From NCBI RefSeq assembly GCF_947623445.1, contig NC_135245.1:6703501-6767500 (forward strand): a stretch of DNA of 64,000 nucleotides. The letters are read 5' to 3'. The notes beneath the pieces were generated by a model, which was not told the DNA's origin, did no database searches, and worked only from the letters and a program-made list of their open reading frames with translations. Numbering within the stretch: position 1 is the first letter of the stretch; each line of letters begins with the position of its first letter. The position numbers were made by a program, and so were the translations under genes. Source of the DNA: Clavelina lepadiformis (taxonomy: Eukaryota > Chordata > Ascidiacea > Aplousobranchia > Clavelinidae). This document shows, one piece after another, positions 1-57,248 of this stretch.

Positions 1-3000
1 GACGATTTAACCCAAAGCGCTAAACCAAGACGATTAAACCGAGTACGACCAACATCTGTGGGTTGAGTAATTCTTGAATTGAATTGTCTTGGGTTAAATC
101 ACCCGTGGGTTGAATTGACCGATCACCTCAAATTATGATGATTATATAATTATGATTATATAACGCAAAAAAGAACAATATATGCAATAAACGTAGCGTG
201 ATGTAATTTTACCGTCGACTGGCTCTTGACAGAAGATTCCACCGATACAAATACAAAGCAAGGAAATACGAATCAAAAATCTGAACATGTTGACACCTTG
301 CGTTCTAACAAAAAAGTGCTAAGCTAAATCTAAATTCAAAAAATATGAAAATGTTATTCGTGGATGGTTGGGCATCTATTTAAACTAAACTAAAACAGAT
401 CACAAAACTCAAAAACATCTGCTTGTCGATATTTTGTGGCAACACGCATAAACAAGCGCTGCGCTTCAAAACGATTTAAGGAAATAGTCAACATTAACTA
501 ACATCCATCTTCCCTTTTGACAGGCTCAAAAAGGAAATTGTGTAGCTGTGCTGACTTCCCCAGAACGAGAATATGATTTGCTGTTATTCAAAATACCTTT
601 TGTCAACAACGAGAAGAATGGGTATTAGAAAGGAAAAACTAAAAGTTTTCCTATAACTTTTTTATAGCCCCCAATTAAACTTGATTTCATTTCTAAGTCC
701 ACCACATTGTCTATACGGCTCTGTACGCGAACAAAATTTTTTCAACATATTCTTTAAACATTTCATACAATGTCCTTGACAGAAAAAACTTTTTTGCCGA
801 TCTTATATGGAGAATAAAACTAAAATGGCCTTTTAATTGTTATAAGTCATCTTTGCTAGTGTATAGCTATGGTTTTAAACTGAGGTATCGGATTAAGAAA
901 AGTGATAAGAAATGCATTCAGCTTTAACTAAATTTACCTAAGTTGTTTCGCCTCAAGCGAGCTGTTTTACCTTCAGAATATTGCCAAAACAAAATACACT
1001 TAACCCGTTTAGACAAGATAAAAACAGCTAAAACTAAAGAATCTGCTCCATTAAACATGCGTATATGTATAAATCCGAAAAGTTTTATGCTTGTGTAAAT
1101 CTTTATCCTAAACATTCGGTTCAGCATTTAGTTGTTTGCAGCACCTCGCATATCATACGTCATACGGCATCAGAAGTTTGCAAAAAGTTGAAACTCTATT
1201 CTGGACATAACGTACAACACACTTTAAAATTATGCAAATATACTAAAATTGTGTTGTCTTGTTTGACTTAATATTACTTTTCATTTCCCAAAGCATCCTA
1301 TTTTAATCCAATTTTTCAAAATTACATACCACATTTAATGGTATAATAAGACAGCATACAATATTTTGTAATAAAACGTTTTACTTGCGCGAGCGTATTT
1401 ATTTTTTAAAAGATATACAATGATCTTTTTCCTCATATAACGTTTCTCAAAGTTGCTATAAGCACGTTTAGCTCCAGAATACTTACTCTATCTATTAACA
1501 CTGCAAACGTTTTGTGCGTTATGCTGTTTTCACTCAACTCGCGCACTCATTATATATACACAGGCTGCTCCCCGCGGCACGACCGTCACCAACCATGTCA
1601 TTCGACGCAAATCTATACGTCAAAGGCATTTGAAGTTTTCTTTAAAATTTTTGGGATACGGTTTCATCGCACAGTCTGTCTGGTTAAAAATGAGCACGAA
1701 TTTTCAAAAATAAGTTTAGCTGTTCGTCATCAGTTAGGAAAAATAGTTTAGTGAATATCAAGCTGGAAAAAACTTCAATTGTCCATGTAAATTATGTTGA
1801 AAATATCCTGTCATTTGGCACAGATTTATAATTTAGCTGCAAAGGATAAGAGACATATAGGAATTCGTCCCTTTTATGTGATGAAAACGTGTTAAAAATG
1901 CGTAAATACTAAAATTATTTGAAATGACTCAACAAACATGTGCCATCGTGTTGACGCAAATATTAAAATTTTATTCACAAAAAATAATGCATAAATTAAA
2001 TTAATTTCTGCAAAACGTTTTTAAAACAACGACATTACGTATTTCACCCATAAGATATGCGCTTATGACATATCACTATACTATATAACTATACACAAGA
2101 ATATTAATTTTTCTTATATTCATCACGTGTTACATAATATTCTTTCATGCCATCATGATTAAAATGAATAGAAGATTAAATAAGTATTTCAGAATACTTT
2201 AAGCATCTTATTTTATTTGCCCTTAACAGATAGACACTGTTAAATTTTAATTGCAAACAGATGAGATTTCAACATCAAACTCTAATAAATTATTTATCAT
2301 TTATTAAAATAAAGATCTCAGCATGTTTTTCTTGTTAAGTTTTTCGTATCTAGGCCGTAATCGTACTTGGAACCACCTATTGCTAATGATTGCAGTGCGC
2401 TATAACATCGTAGATAAATTGCTATTGCAGCTTGCAAATACTCTATTTACGTTAACATCATTGTTTTTCTTGGAAAAAGATACAAGATATTAACTGCGTT
2501 TACAAGAGTTCTAACAATGGAACTTAAAACTCGTTTATATAATCAGTGACTCATGTAATGAGTTGATAATCTCCGCTCGGCAACAATTACAGTGCGTGGG
2601 TTGTAAACGTTTGCATAACAAAGTTGGCTGAAAACAATTTTGTCAAAACAGAACACTGGAAATGGTAATGGTTTTTTTTGCTATATAATATTGCATATTT
2701 ATTAATTCCATTTTTGGAAAATACAAAAGTTCAGCAAAAGTACGAAAACGTAATTGCTTTGATTAGGTACTAAATGGTTTTTGGGCGGGTTGTTGGCCAC
2801 AAACTTAGTTTGGTCGTTTATATCCCGTAAAATTAGAATTTCCAAAAAAGAAATTACAAGTTTGGTGTACTGCCTTGTTTGATGACAAAGATCCATCCAT
2901 AGATGGTCAAATGTCTTAAGTTTTTTTAAATGTTTGCCAGCAATACAGCAAAAACTTTTCTTTTAAATCATGGCTGGCAAAATTGGAAGCAAGATTTATT

Positions 3001-6000
3001 AAAAGCGTGAGAAATGTATAGTTTATCTTGAATTTCTGAAAAAGGTTTGTGATGACAGAAATGAGACTACGCACCCATCTTATAGATGATGCTCCTCCAG
3101 AATTTATTCTATTTTCGATGTTGCTATTTATGGTATTTCGGCGTTCACCAATCCCAAGGTCTTACTCTGAATCATACTTGTACTTGTCACCTTAACCAAT
3201 GTATTAAGGCGAAATTAGTTGAATGACGTAATTGTGGCTATATGTGGATTTTGCAGGTTTGTTCAAGGCTGCCTCACATTAAGAGAGAAGTGTAAAGATT
3301 TAGAAACAAGCACTTTCCTTGATGGTGGCCATGAAATGTCAATGCCGAGTAAATCTTGCAAAATTCGTACGCAAATGCGTTGAAAGGCGATTTCACTTAC
3401 GCTTTACAAGTATACAGGATGTTCATAATTATGCTATATAAACTTCACCCCAGTCAAAAGTGGAAGGAGTGCTAGGGATTGCGTGAGTTGCTAATTGAGC
3501 ATTTGCTTCTCAGGATGAAGATTTAGTATTATAGCTCATCTGAGATGGCCATTAAGATTTATTTGCAGCGTAAATTTGCGTTACATCTTCACAAATAAAC
3601 GAAAACTTTACCCGATTCAATGAGAACAAAATTTTATTGCAACATTAACAAGCGTATGCACAATGATTTTACGTATGACAGATATGACATAATGACAGAT
3701 GGTGACATACAAAGCAAATTGATAATAGCAACTTTCCTGTCATGGAATAACTTTCTATAACTAGTGATGCGGTCATGCCTCAGGAAACTATAGTTTTACA
3801 ACGCAGCGCAGTGCATACAAAAAGCATGGACCAGGCTATACAAACGATTGGGTTTGGTTCATTATCGCTGAACGTGAATTCCAATGGCGTTAAATCAGAA
3901 CAAAATTTCCTCCTTCGACTCAAATATAAGTTGCCTTGTTTGGTTTCTTAGCTTTGTTACGGTTAGTTTATCAGAAATTAAAGGCCAAACAATTCTCAAA
4001 AACTAATTCCTCACATATCTTATAATGACTCGACAATTAACAATTTATATTTTCGGCAGATCTCAGGTATAAGTAAGGTATGCAGTAGTATAGTAAAACG
4101 TATAAATAAACCACACCCAAGAGAAGACACTTTTAGATCAACAACAAAGATGAAGTCATAATAATTTCAACATATTTGGTTACAAAAGAGAAAGTCAATT
4201 TATCAGGCCGAAATAACTAAAAGAGAAAATATAAACTAAAGTTTAAGTTAATTAATTATTTCAAGCTATTATTGGCAAAAATAATTTTAGCGTTGCGGAT
4301 CGAACAAGGATCATCCCTTACACTGTTCGATATCAATGTAATTGGAACGTGAAATATTTTCAACACAGAAATAGACGGAACATTGTACACATAGCGCTCG
4401 TGCCAAGATAGATAGGCTATAACTAAATAAAATGTTGGAAAAAATTGTAACGTAGGCCTTGCATATTTGCATTGGATTGCTTCTCTAGTTTAAACTCGAA
4501 ATTAGATGATATTTCTAATTCATACGAATCAACGAAAAACAGATCAGCGTATTCACTTTTCTCAAACGACACATGCACCTGGTGACCTGTATATACGTTC
4601 CCGTTCGTTTACACTTGACGCAAACTCAAATGTGATAACACATATGCCACTTTTATATATGTGGATGTGTGGCTGTGTGTACGTATGCGTGCAGTTTGTG
4701 CTAAGCAAGGGGTCAGCCATCCGGTGACAAACAACGCGTTTTTGCTTTTTATCAAACCGACCGTCGAGAGCCCCACAAGCTCTGATGACGGACGCTTTAA
4801 CCACCATAGGGCCACCTGGTGGTTGCATTTGCCGTTAGTGAAAACCTCTCTTTGTGGAAATGTTGCAGACGCCATCTTCTGGTTGTCATCAAAGTATTTG
4901 CATCTTTACAGATTGCGTAAGTAATGGATACAAGCTCGGATATCTATTAGCAATATATAATCAATTATTGCATCCCAGCCCATGTGCTGATCTCTGTGTA
5001 TTATTTCATAGAGGTGAAATCATATCCTATGTAAACGAGCGATAAAACATTCAAACTGGCTTTTGATCATAAACTAATTTAGATCCTTAGGACAACACGG
5101 ATTGACCCTTCACAGCAATGATGGTTGATGTGTGTGCTTGTGAACTAGGTTATAATATAGCCTTTAGGCAAATAAAATTTAGCTTAAAGAATATTCCAGT
5201 TTTACTATTATAAATATGAGGGATCAGTGATGAGAAATAAACTAGATACAGCGATTTTGATCCTGAGTTTCAAGCCACAGTTGAAAACGGTTTAACTCCG
5301 GTTTAGGTTGACAAAATTTTATTTCACTGCTTATACTCCGGTTTGGGTTTGCATTGAATGCCCGCATTTACGGGTTCCGGACTTCTTCCAAAAGACTTGA
5401 CTTGTGACTCGAATTTGATGACCTGGTCCCAACTCTGCAAGCCAGTAGCCACTAAAGTGGCAGGAATTCTAATATACAGCTTGTTGTAACCGATCTTGAA
5501 TCACATGACTGCTCTCAAAGAAATTATGCCTCGACTTTGACAAATATTTTGGACCTCTGTTTATGAAGAAGAGCTCAGAACCGGAACCGGTTTTATCAGG
5601 TTTAAGGTGCCTGCTGTCAACCAAGTTGCACACGCACGTGACTTAGTCCTATAATACAGAATTACTTAGCCACGTTTAAGCGACATCGCGTATATTAGGC
5701 TACTTGTCGTGCAGTTTGTTTTAATAAATCACGTTCAGCTTCGGATTAAACTAACCAACAATACTGTAGTAATTAGTATGTGGCCCGGTAAAAATTCTGA
5801 TGACTAAATGTAAACATACAGCACACTAAGTCGAATGTGGTCCAACGTTATTGCCCACTTCATAAACAGCCGCACATTATTTCGATAACACAATAAGTTA
5901 CAACCATGTTTTCTTTTATGCACCAATAAATAACGATGTTCTAAGCTGACGACTATTTAAGATATGCAGTAGAATAAGTCGCTATAGAAAACGTGTAATA

Positions 6001-9882: not shown

Positions 9883-10319
9883 AGCTAATTCTTAATTCAA
9901 GTTTCAATGACCCTACAAACAATTGCACTTATCAGACTTCATGGACATGGCAAACTGCTCAGCAAACCATTCTTAAACAATAGGTCTAGTAGGCTAATCC
10001 ATTTAAGCTATGCAGGAATAATGAGTCTATTAAAAACAAATTCTGCTAAAGAGATTAGGGCCTAGGGGTCTAGTTAGAAAAGGTCATCCTGTGATTGTGC
10101 ACTTGTATACTAGACCCGAAAATAGTAACACTAATATCACTAGCCTACCCGGAGAACGGTATAAGCCTACGGATTATAGTTGTACAGCCGTGCACCTTGC
10201 CTATCACAAACAAAATTTTGAAAATCGACCATTGTGACGTATACCAACTTCCCAAGAATGCAGCTATAGCTAACTGTCTGAGCAGATTGTATAGTCTGAA
10301 TACGCGGTATTAATCAGCT

Positions 10320-10800
10320 TTAGCTTAACCTGTCAACTAAAAAAAATATTTCTGTCACAAAGGGTTTTGAACCTACTATAACCTTTAGAGTTAGACAAAA
10401 TGTTTGTCGGAGAAGTGATTTATTTATTGTAGTTTTTACAGAATAGGGAAACTGAGGAACGTGATACCAACGATATAAAGAACTTTGTTCTTTATATCGT
10501 TGGTGATACTAATTTACGGAATGTGACAAATAACGAAATTACGGAATAACTTTTTCCATGCTTGTAGGCCTAGTAATACAATTTAGAAATATATGCAATA
10601 TTATTTAGCTTAACCTGTTAGCTATAAAAATATTTTTGTCGCAATGCGTTTGGAATTTTCTAAAATCTTCACAAAACGTTTTTGTTGATCCAGTGATTTT
10701 TATGTCGTACTTTTTACAGAATGAGGTAACTGAGCAACATGACACTAATTTACCTAAAGTGAGAAATTACGGAATTAAGGAATAACTTGGGTTTTCATTC
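10320..10800 (+). repeat. diverged tandem duplication, two copies
   Basis: Copy 1 (about 10320-10557) and copy 2 (about 10608-10792) share ordered words: CTTAACCTGT, AAATATTT.TGTC, CAAAATGTTTG/CAAAACGTTTT, GTGATTT, TTTTTACAGAAT, AACTGAG.AAC, ACTAATTTAC, AAATTACGGAAT and AGGAATAACT. The copies differ by substitutions, small indels and one palindromic insertion in copy 1. Confidence 0.75.
10468..10502. repeat. 35-bp perfect palindromic insertion flanked by a 7-bp duplication
   Basis: Arm CAACGATATAAAGAAC, loop TTT, then the exact reverse complement of the arm. GTGATAC stands directly before (10461-10467) and directly after (10503-10509). The sister copy of the tandem duplication has a single ATGACAC at the matching place and no palindrome, so the palindrome is an insertion with a target duplication. 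Counting the outer C/G and A/T pairs the stem is 18 bp. Confidence 0.85.
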
Positions 10801-23948: not shown

Positions 23949-25355
23949 ATGTTAATTATGGAGCAGAAAATACAATATGCCATTGAAACCATTGACAGCG
24001 CACGTGAGCACAAATGCGAACTGGAAGGACGTAGAAAACAGCTGTCTTCTGCTATTTCACAAGTTACCAGCACAGCAAATATAACAAGGCATGAAGTAGA
24101 ACATTATTTTGAATTGATGAAGGAAAATATGTCCTGTGCAATTGGTTCACGTTTGAAAGCTTTGCTGAAAGAAATTGATCACATTGAATTGGAAGCACTG
24201 GACCCACTGAAAGATTGTCAGTTATTGATAGAAGAAGGTATTGAGGAAGCTGCAAGTGTTGTTACATCTGGTGAAAGTATCTTAAATGAAGATATAGAGA
24301 CTGATGAAGGATTTTGCCATGTCAGCAAGTTTATATCGATGACAGATAGCCTTGCTTTGGATAGTTTGCCTGAGGTACCATCTGCCACTGAAGTTCCAAG
24401 TATATCTGCTGTTTTCAGTAGTGATTTTGTTGAAACTATTTCAAAAGCTGTAAAGAATGAAGGTGTAATTAGTCGACGGTCTCCCGTCCAAATAACTGAT
24501 TTATCTCCTATCCCAGGTGGTGTTATTGCTACTTGGGCCTGTACGGAGGAAGAAGATGATTATTTAACAAATGCCAAAGTGAAATACCTTTTTCGGCTAC
24601 AAAGCTTCCGTGGAAAAATTATTTCTAACAAGGGAAAACCAACCAAAGAACGCAACATATTCAAGGAGATATACTGCGGCCCTGAGATGTCTTGCACAGT
24701 GAAAAACCTTGCTGCTAATAGTATTTACACATTCAGAGTTTCCAGATGTCAATATACGGAAAGTGGTAGCATCTCAAGGCAATGGAGCCCTTGGAGTGTT
24801 TATCAGGAAAAGGTGACTGTCATGCCTGGCTTTACATGGATGCCTCCAAAAGATGAAGAGTCTTATATTCTCTCAGAAAAAAATCAAGTAGCTTTGAAGA
24901 AGAGTGGTCTGGTTAGGGTTCTATACTCTGATGCATCTTCTTTTGTGGTTGGGTATCCCATAAGCTTCAAGATTGATCTTGAAGGAAAAGCAAGAAATAA
25001 GTGTGATTGTATAGGTTTGTGCATGAAGAGAGATCCAGATGCTACTGGGATGCACACAAAAGAAGGTACAATATGCATGATGGCTGATGGGCACATTTGG
25101 TTTAATGGTGTACGTAGTCACACCAAGTTTCCAAAATTAAGTAGAGGATTGGTGGTGTCATTTTGCTTACAAAAATCTGAAGAAAAACAAAGTGATTCGA
25201 AGCATAAAATTACAACATTTCGAGCAGCGCTGACCATTGGTGAATACCAAGCCGTGTTTGATTGGATTCCCGTTAAATCTGGAACATTTAATCCTCAGAA
25301 TCTAGCATTTTGTATGCTATTTCAATCCTCGGGTTGGAAGGTATCTATTGTTTAA
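23949..25355 (+). CDS. CRLF3: Cytokine receptor-like factor 3 (single-exon)
   Basis: 468 aa; human CRLF3 is about 442. N-terminal helical/coiled-coil part (about 1-105). A DSLPEVP motif (138-144), as in vertebrate CRLF3, is followed by a fibronectin type III domain (about 175-285) with a canonical cytokine-receptor WSPWS box at 279-283. The C-terminal beta-rich SPRY-like domain (about 300-468) ends SSGWKVSIV (human: PGWKVLVF). CRLF3 proteins are conserved cytosolic regulators linked to neuroprotective erythropoietin-like signalling and platelet biology; a transmembrane segment is not seen here either. Start: the ATG at 23949 follows an in-frame TAA; the ATG at 23958 is an alternative. No intron interrupts the ORF, unlike the multi-exon vertebrate gene. 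No poly(A) tail or direct repeats are obvious at the ends. Confidence 0.93.
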   Translation: MLIMEQKIQYAIETIDSAREHKCELEGRRKQLSSAISQVTSTANITRHEVEHYFELMKENMSCAIGSRLKALLKEIDHIELEALDPLKDCQLLIEEGIEEAASVVTSGESILNEDIETDEGFCHVSKFISMTDSLALDSLPEVPSATEVPSISAVFSSDFVETISKAVKNEGVISRRSPVQITDLSPIPGGVIATWACTEEEDDYLTNAKVKYLFRLQSFRGKIISNKGKPTKERNIFKEIYCGPEMSCTVKNLAANSIYTFRVSRCQYTESGSISRQWSPWSVYQEKVTVMPGFTWMPPKDEESYILSEKNQVALKKSGLVRVLYSDASSFVVGYPISFKIDLEGKARNKCDCIGLCMKRDPDATGMHTKEGTICMMADGHIWFNGVRSHTKFPKLSRGLVVSFCLQKSEEKQSDSKHKITTFRAALTIGEYQAVFDWIPVKSGTFNPQNLAFCMLFQSSGWKVSIV

Positions 25356-55105: not shown

Positions 55106-57175
55106 TTATACACGAAGTCACTATACGCGAAGTCATTTCTATGCAAAACATATCGTTTGCAAACATGGACTTTGCAACAGGTGTCACTATAGGCGAAGTG
55201 TCACGAAAGTTGAAGTCATTACAGGCGAATTCTACTGTATTTAAAATCATATGTAAAGCAATGCAATAGCTTAAGCTTATTAAAGATAGGATAAGCACGT
55301 AATAATCCAAGTTCCACAACGTGCATTAATTGTTACAGGTTACAATATCAAAATTGAGTGTAAATTAAAGTCATTATAGGCTATAGTACTATTTAAATAA
55401 ATTACCTTTTTCTTGATTCATGATAATTCTGCTCATCGCATTCTTTCCTTGATAAAAAGGACTTAGCAATAATTTTCATAGACTGCTGCTTTTCTACAAT
55501 GAACGACTTTTTTAGAATAGTCCTCATGCTTGCTTATATGCTGTGTTAGGCTACTTACTCTGAAAAGTGATGCGCATAAATGCTTCAAATTTCCAAACCT
55601 CGGCTTTAATATGGGCAGAAAAAATAGGCTTTTCAGCTTGCCAGAGGACTGGCAACTCCAACAACCTGAAACCAGCAGGTATCTCCCAGCTTGTTGACAG
55701 CTAGATCTTTTGTTAATAACAGCCAAACGTATTGTTCCTCAAATCCGATGCGGGAAGAGCGACTGAAAGGTAAAATCTTTTGTTTCAAAAGCAGATTACT
55801 CACTTTATTCAATTCACCATAAAGTCTGTTAACGTACGTGCGCTCAACTATGATCTACTTCAAAACTCAGCAAATGTGACACAATCGAATATTTATGGCT
55901 GTCCTGTCTATTGTTCACACTGTGATGTTGCGCAGAAATTAAAGCAGTGGAGTCGGAATCGAGAGCAGTTTTGAGATCACTGGAGTTAGAGTCGGAAAAA
56001 TATTTCTCGGCGCCGACTTTATGTAAACCTTTACGGCTATACAATAAATTCAATTCATTGTCGCCTGATGCGCGCAGGTATGCGAGATTGTAGAAAACGG
56101 TGCAGTATTATGGTGAGAAGTCGAATCACAGTAGGAAGTTTTGTGTTTCGCTTACACAACCCCAGCTGAATGAACTGTATATATGCAGTTTGACGAAACA
56201 TTACATCGCTTGCCAAGAGATAATAACTCCCACACTGGCGATCAGCAATCTCTACATGATAACAATACAATTACAGACTTGCTGTTGTTCTGAAATTGTT
56301 TCCAAGTACCAGGAGCTTATAAAAGCTGTAAAATTCAACCTGCAATTGAATTGCTTTTAGCAAACTCCTGGTATAACAAAGTAACTTTCTCTTATGCAAT
56401 TCCTTTTCCAAACTTGCAATGATTTCGCTTAGTTGTATGACTAATCAACAATATCCGATCAGCTCCTAAAACGGTTATATCGCAAACTTAAATACGAAAA
56501 CTGTAGTGTGCCCATATACTAGTTTTTTGTAAGAAAACTTGAATTTAAGAAGTGCAGGAGTTATTTGTAAAGGGATCGAAACCTCCATATTACTTCCACA
56601 TTCCCGGACAATCTTTTTACAAACATCCGCTGGGTGTTTTCAAGAGAGATTATCTCTTTTATTTTAGATGATATTATTCTAGTAGCAAAGGGTAGTAATT
56701 GGCTGAGTACCTTGAAAGAAAAGAATATCTATTGGCTTCTAATTATTTTCGGCAGGTCGTTATGACAATTAGCATATTAATTTCGCCATAATATGCTAAT
56801 TGTCAGAACACAGGATAATTATATAGTAAGCCAATAAATGGTCATATGTGTACTTAACCAATTAGCCACCATATAGTGCATGTCGGATTATTTCGCATAT
56901 AGGCTATTGTACAATCAGTGTATGCCTTCAATAAAATTGACCAAACACCTGTACTCAGACAAATAGGCTACAGTAGGCTACTGCTGCAATGTAGCCACAT
57001 AATTGATTTACAGTATCCAATTACGCATTCATTTTTTAAATATCCCGGTTCAAATGCGATTCCAACTCGATATCGCTTGTAAACAAGAAAAGTAAGAAAT
57101 TCGCGCAGCTTGCTCCATAAGTTAAGCAAAAAACGCAGTAGTAATAAATGACAGCATTAAATGTTATCGAACAGC

Positions 57176-57248
57176 TCCTCTATAGCTCAGGGATAAAATC
57201 ACTGGTTTTGCAAACCAGGGGTCGAGAGTTCGATTCTCATTGGAGGCA
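57176..57248 (+). pseudogene. tRNA-like gene with TGC anticodon, probably a pseudogene
   Basis: An A box (TAGCTCAGGGAT), a perfect anticodon stem CTGGT/ACCAG around loop TTTGCAA (anticodon TGC, Ala) and a B box (AGTTCGATTCT) are in correct spacing. Six of seven acceptor pairs form. The D stem has only two of four pairs and the T stem has one mismatch plus one G-T, so a working tRNA is unlikely. The body resembles tRNA-Thr as much as tRNA-Ala. Confidence 0.6.

Follow-up and report, generated by a model that had tools for sequence, protein, structure and literature searches.

A 35-base palindrome in Clavelina lepadiformis is very probably an excision footprint of a P-superfamily DNA transposon

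The 35-base palindrome described here lies in a 64,000-nucleotide stretch of the Clavelina lepadiformis genome (the window) and is very probably the excision footprint of a P-superfamily DNA transposon, one of dozens of such footprints in this genome. The feature is laid out as a target repeat, 16 nt, TTT, another 16 nt and a second target repeat. This is the same anatomy as that of the Drosophila P excision repair junctions, which argues for the palindrome being an excision footprint. Among the origins that the first-pass annotation had considered, a transposase by-product consisting of two joined ends comes close to this best reading.

In Drosophila, the two strands are cut by the P transposase at different places, one at the end of the element and one 17 nt further in, which is an unusually long stagger (PMC7776569, accessible text). 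Following excision of the Drosophila P-element construct P{w-a} in Rad51-deficient flies, the 17-nt tails are end-joined into a target repeat, up to 17 nt of the end, an overlap or filler, the other end and a target repeat (PMC2895639, Table 1, from the part of the article available to us). For the palindrome, a P-superfamily copy would have inserted at GTGATAC and duplicated 7 bp, a step shown by the repeats and the related copy described below. A P-type transposase would then have excised the element, placing the inner cut some 16 nt in from each end, so that each flank would keep its 7-bp repeat and a 16-nt tail, and error-prone end joining would have connected the two tails with a short filler, in this case TTT. 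The tails are identical in sequence and therefore not complementary to each other, and a near-perfect palindrome arises automatically when such inverted copies of one 16-nt sequence are joined. By analogy with Drosophila P biochemistry, the 16-nt boundary would be the cut site and the tail a 3' single strand; the enzyme sealing the break is perhaps polymerase theta, again judging from Drosophila.

The palindrome and its flanks

The two exact 16-bp inverted arms are located at 10468-10483 (plus strand) and 10487-10502 (minus strand), being the outer 16 nt of the two transposon terminal inverted repeats, and are separated by the 3-nt TTT repair filler (10484-10486). The perfect 7-bp direct repeat GTGATAC, which fits the family consensus GTnnnAC, flanks them at 10461-10467 and 10503-10509 on the plus strand, so the geometry given in the first-pass annotation is exact in arms, loop and repeats. 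The full perfect inverted repeat has 18 bp per arm (10466-10483 and 10487-10504, loop of 3) rather than 16, because the target repeat ends in AC and begins with GT, adding two paired bases.

The scar is carried by copy 1 (10319-10552, plus strand) of a diverged tandem duplication, with copy 2 at 10604-10788 on the same strand. The alignment of the copies contains a single 42-base gap at the insert, corresponding to the 35-bp insert and one 7-bp repeat, together with two further, smaller gaps away from it. At the position of the insert copy 2 has ATGACAC (10739-10745), and the extent of the gap indicates that copy 2 represents a related, uninserted site, as the first-pass annotation had proposed. 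Its suggestion of staggered cutting likewise agrees with a 7-bp duplication made by a transposase.

Random 64-kb sequences of the same composition are expected to hold 0.0012 perfect palindromes with arms of at least 16 and loops of up to 20, and the window holds two, this site and 56763-56805. With arms of at least 12, there are 15 start positions in the window, compared to 0-3 in each of 20 first-order Markov sequences. The second palindrome is near-perfect over 56759-56809, with perfect arms of 17 and a loop of 9 at 56763-56805; it is unrelated in sequence and has no obvious 7-bp repeat in its immediate flanks. Other features of the window include a 468-amino-acid frame similar to cytokine receptor-like factor 3 (23949-25355, plus strand; CRLF3-like, best structure 6rpx, E=7.6e-24) and a tRNA gene (57176-57248, plus strand; Rfam ID RF00005, 36.7 bits).

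The parent transposon family

We searched the 209-Mb genome containing the window. The outer 13-mer of the arm, CAACGATATAAAG, has 214 matches, compared to 10 for the reversed pattern, and the arm itself corresponds to the outermost 16 nt of a terminal inverted repeat of 29 bp, which reads in full in other copies as CAACGATATAAAGAACATGATRGGAAACT. This repeat is found at 71 ends with up to three mismatches (control, 0), 42 of them exact, and the element ends stop resembling each other beyond about 29 bp. We read 11 element loci of 1.2-5.1 kb, bounded by the outer 13-mer, and excluded one (L049) as a duplicate of L048. The remaining ten have a perfect 7-bp target repeat in nine cases and a 6/7 repeat in the tenth.

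The 5,065-bp element L090 has the family ends and the 7-bp repeat GTCACAC. Its 348-amino-acid frame matches RNase H and GTP-binding domains (PF21788, E=2.2e-10; PF21787, E=4.4e-9; PF21789, E=2.6e-5), and its closest solved structure in the PDB is the Drosophila P transposase (PDB ID 6p5a, E=3.9e-14). A separate 86-amino-acid frame gives a weak THAP match (Pfam ID PF05485, E=2.6e-4) that, with 22.2 bits, lies below the 23.9-bit cut-off. A second element, L052, contains the RNase H domain as well (PF21787, E=1.1e-22). The transposase domains and the 6p5a match between these ends identify the parent of the scar as a P-superfamily transposon, and features of this superfamily are present: an RNase H transposase with a GTP-binding insertion domain, terminal inverted repeats and a target duplication of 7 or 8 bp with a palindromic preference, here 7 bp with GTnnnAC. 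No description of this particular family was found in a literature search that fell short of most subscription journals.

P-type transposases are diverse in the genome; PF21788 has 68 matches there, among them open frames 860 and 739 amino acids long. A sister family with a 425-amino-acid frame, about 60% identical to L090, has at least 11 copies with near-equal scores. Some P-type transposase copies may have been active recently. A further copy of 4,951 bp with P-type ends and 7-bp repeats (L089, genome G000, C5:3468937-3473987) contains, at its positions 1906-3102 on the minus strand, a 399-amino-acid open frame resembling herpesvirus glycoprotein B (Pfam ID PF00606, E=1.2e-9), the 38.4 bits being below the 43-bit cut-off. 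On C7 of the same genome (3473982-3665324), ten related ends (CAGGGATATAAAG... and variants) are found within about 190 kb, all on the plus strand, perhaps representing a tandem array that captured one transposon end.

Face-to-face ends and their junctions

Inverted pairs of CAACGATATAAAG lying 0-30 nt apart occur at 51 places in the genome and at none in the control. Fifty of the 51 places were listed and all 50 were read; the 48 with distinct flanks were tabulated, and L064 and L075 were left out, being identical to L035 and L046 over the 30 bases on the left. Since the flanks of L038 are those of L046 in reverse orientation, the 48 rows represent at most 47 events. Several other sites resemble each other in their flanks through dispersed repeats, which do not come together at the junction. 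The scars are 27-55 bp long, within a search pattern allowing 26-56 bp.

Perfect 7-bp repeats with the consensus GTnnnAC flank 36 of the 48 sites, and six more have 6/7 repeats, whereas left and right 7-mers taken from different sites are identical in 15 of 2,256 comparisons. Perfect adjoining repeats of exactly 4-6 or 8-10 bp were not seen at any of the 48 sites. Six sites are without a recognisable 7-bp repeat (a match at 1-4 of 7 positions), which counts against the footprint reading. Related uninserted copies, though diverged, also exist for L044 (in L041 and L085). No locus was found to carry the element in one copy but the scar in a second, which likewise counts against the footprint reading. 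The set has the features of footprints, with both target repeats and the outer ends kept (16 nt at the window site) and with a short filler or microhomology at the junction.

The junctions are diverse, 39 of the 48 being distinct. Fillers are missing in 14 junctions, 1-3 nt long in six and at least 4 nt long in 28. In the 24 fillers of at least 6 nt, copies of the end are enriched, with the longest matching words summing to 159, compared to 107.8 in shuffles that preserve base composition only (standard deviation 4.8; largest value 127 of 300). The clearest filler is that of L082, where 23 of 25 nt are copied from the right end, target repeat and flank of the same site. None of the other sites' flanks match this filler as well, so it was made at that site. 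Own-flank copying is clear only in L082, and most of the other 23 long fillers match their own flank no better than the flanks of other sites, another point against the footprint reading. In the 50-bp scar L039, the two arms enclose a further copy of the transposon end, the third at this site and 12 nt long.

Two microhomology products were predicted beforehand, and a search demanding a target-like right flank recovered the 16-bp TATA join, at C7:13492298 with matching 7-bp repeats, but not the 14-bp ATAT join, whose absence counts against the footprint reading. The search for predicted joins gave five forward and four reverse matches at five places (control, 0 and 2). At three of these places the repeats on the two sides match, and one place is inside L082.

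The first-pass annotation had raised the possibility of a minimal foldback element or mobile unit, and a genome search for inverted pairs does reveal numerous copies that have short loops and are flanked by repeats, but these look like separate scars from separate excision events rather than copies of one element. A tiny MITE-like or foldback element, whose abutted ends move as a 27-55-bp unit by means of a P-type transposase, would account for about 50 dispersed copies, most of them with 7-bp target repeats, and for the recurrence of two junction types, a 31-bp type found six times and a 28-bp type found five times. This recurrence is expected of a mobile unit and also counts against the footprint reading, although by our own derivation the 28-bp type would result from pairing the terminal GNNC of two 16-nt tails. 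The near-identical interior that such a unit should carry at many unrelated sites is absent, the arms end at about 16 of the 29 nt of the transposon end, the filler of L082 derives from its own flank, and the only long junction in common (L038, L046 and L075) sits inside a larger duplicated stretch. In Drosophila P elements, the 31-bp repeats and internal transposase-binding sites are required. The accessible text on Drosophila P elements describes both (PMC7776569), speaking against mobility of so short a unit. Taken with the diversity of the junctions, this makes a tiny mobile element very improbable.

Retained end length and known P-type systems

A one-sided census of 28 distinct ends, drawn from the first 30 of the 214 CAACGATATAAAG matches, shows two groups: 17 ends agree with the true end over 13-17 nt (exactly 16 in 12 of them) and 11 over 22-29 nt. 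On visual inspection, one of the 17 short ends (L029) is a full end that carries substitutions. In the scars, the next base of the element continues in only 9 of the 48 sides that reach 16 nt. A cut at 17 nt was considered and 16 was preferred: on the informative sides (those where the arm extends to 16 in a scar of more than 32 bp), the element base A is found at position 17 in 9 of 34, no more than base composition gives (A is 0.32 in the window), so a boundary at 16 fits better. A 17-nt tail may instead have lost one base. At least 18 nt of the end are kept on at least one side in L040 and L074, and by plain count also in L080, which counts against the footprint reading.

Three hybrid loci (L027, L054 and L055) combine one full end with a 15-16-nt stub followed by different sequence. 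Target repeats match at 7/7 positions in L054 and L055, which belong to the ten element loci and in which one end leaves the full repeat after 15 nt, and at 5/7 in L027. This layout is as expected if the product of gap repair from one side is joined to a cut stub, which speaks for scars, and the hybrids suggest that such events occur in this family. The palindrome itself might then be an internal-deletion derivative left by interrupted gap repair, with no direct joining of cut tails, but variable element lengths would be expected from this process, yet both arms end at 16, where the sampled ends most often stop, and we regard this origin as extremely improbable. A one-off fold-back replication event or template switch, the latter being a process that typically yields perfect palindromes with short loops and another proposal of the first-pass annotation, is almost certainly not the source, being contradicted by the genome-wide recurrence of the same 16-nt arm as a transposon end and by 7-bp repeats with a common consensus.

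The excision footprint reading is further supported by the likeness of the scars to the P{w-a} junctions, both being built of target repeat, end stub, overlap or filler, second stub and target repeat (PMC2895639, accessible part). The P{w-a} set, as far as that text goes, is experimental and comes from one locus in Rad51-deficient flies, with 8-bp repeats and 17-nt tails, whereas the scars described here are natural and genome-wide, have 7-bp repeats and a boundary at 16 nt, and contain long fillers more often. Fillers of at least 4 nt are found in 28 of 48 junctions here, compared to fillers of more than 3 nt in 13% of the Drosophila Rad51-deficient set (PMC2895639, accessible part). This difference counts against the footprint reading, but the two sets are not directly comparable, since our search pattern needs 13 nt on both sides, hiding strongly resected joins and under-sampling the longer resections that are common in the Drosophila table.

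Other systems share parts of this picture. The Galileo element of Drosophila, also of the P superfamily, has 7-bp target duplications with the consensus GTATTAC or GTANTAC (PMC4168063, accessible text), matching the GTnnnAC found here, but its terminal repeats are very long, in contrast to 29 bp; the word "footprint" is absent from the main text of that article. Zebrafish Pdre2/THAP9 likewise represents a P-type transposase outside the insects with a terminal repeat starting with CA, but differs in its 8-bp target duplication and 13-bp terminal repeats (PMC10983969, accessible text). The excision footprints of rice transposons are also scars seen genome-wide with filler segments, although these are plant transposons and a conserved element stub is not described in the part of the article available (PMC4423477). 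A literature search, with most subscription journals out of reach, found no paper on natural genome-wide P-type footprints.

Known excision chemistry thus accounts for a feature with the look of a novel mobile unit smaller than any MITE, and repeat annotators could take such scars for tiny MITEs. The mechanism is already known; what is apparently new is the family, the apparent 16-nt stagger and the large natural record of junctions. About 50 natural junctions indicate, without an experiment, the position of the transposase cut (about 16 nt) and the end-joining habits of the germline. We lean slightly towards the broader view that this P family cuts with a 16-nt rather than a 17-nt stagger, so that the spacing varies within the superfamily, and that the genome would hold a germline record of dozens of independent end-joinings at a defined break. 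Such a record would serve, in a wild animal, as a natural assay of error-prone repair, which polymerase theta perhaps carries out.
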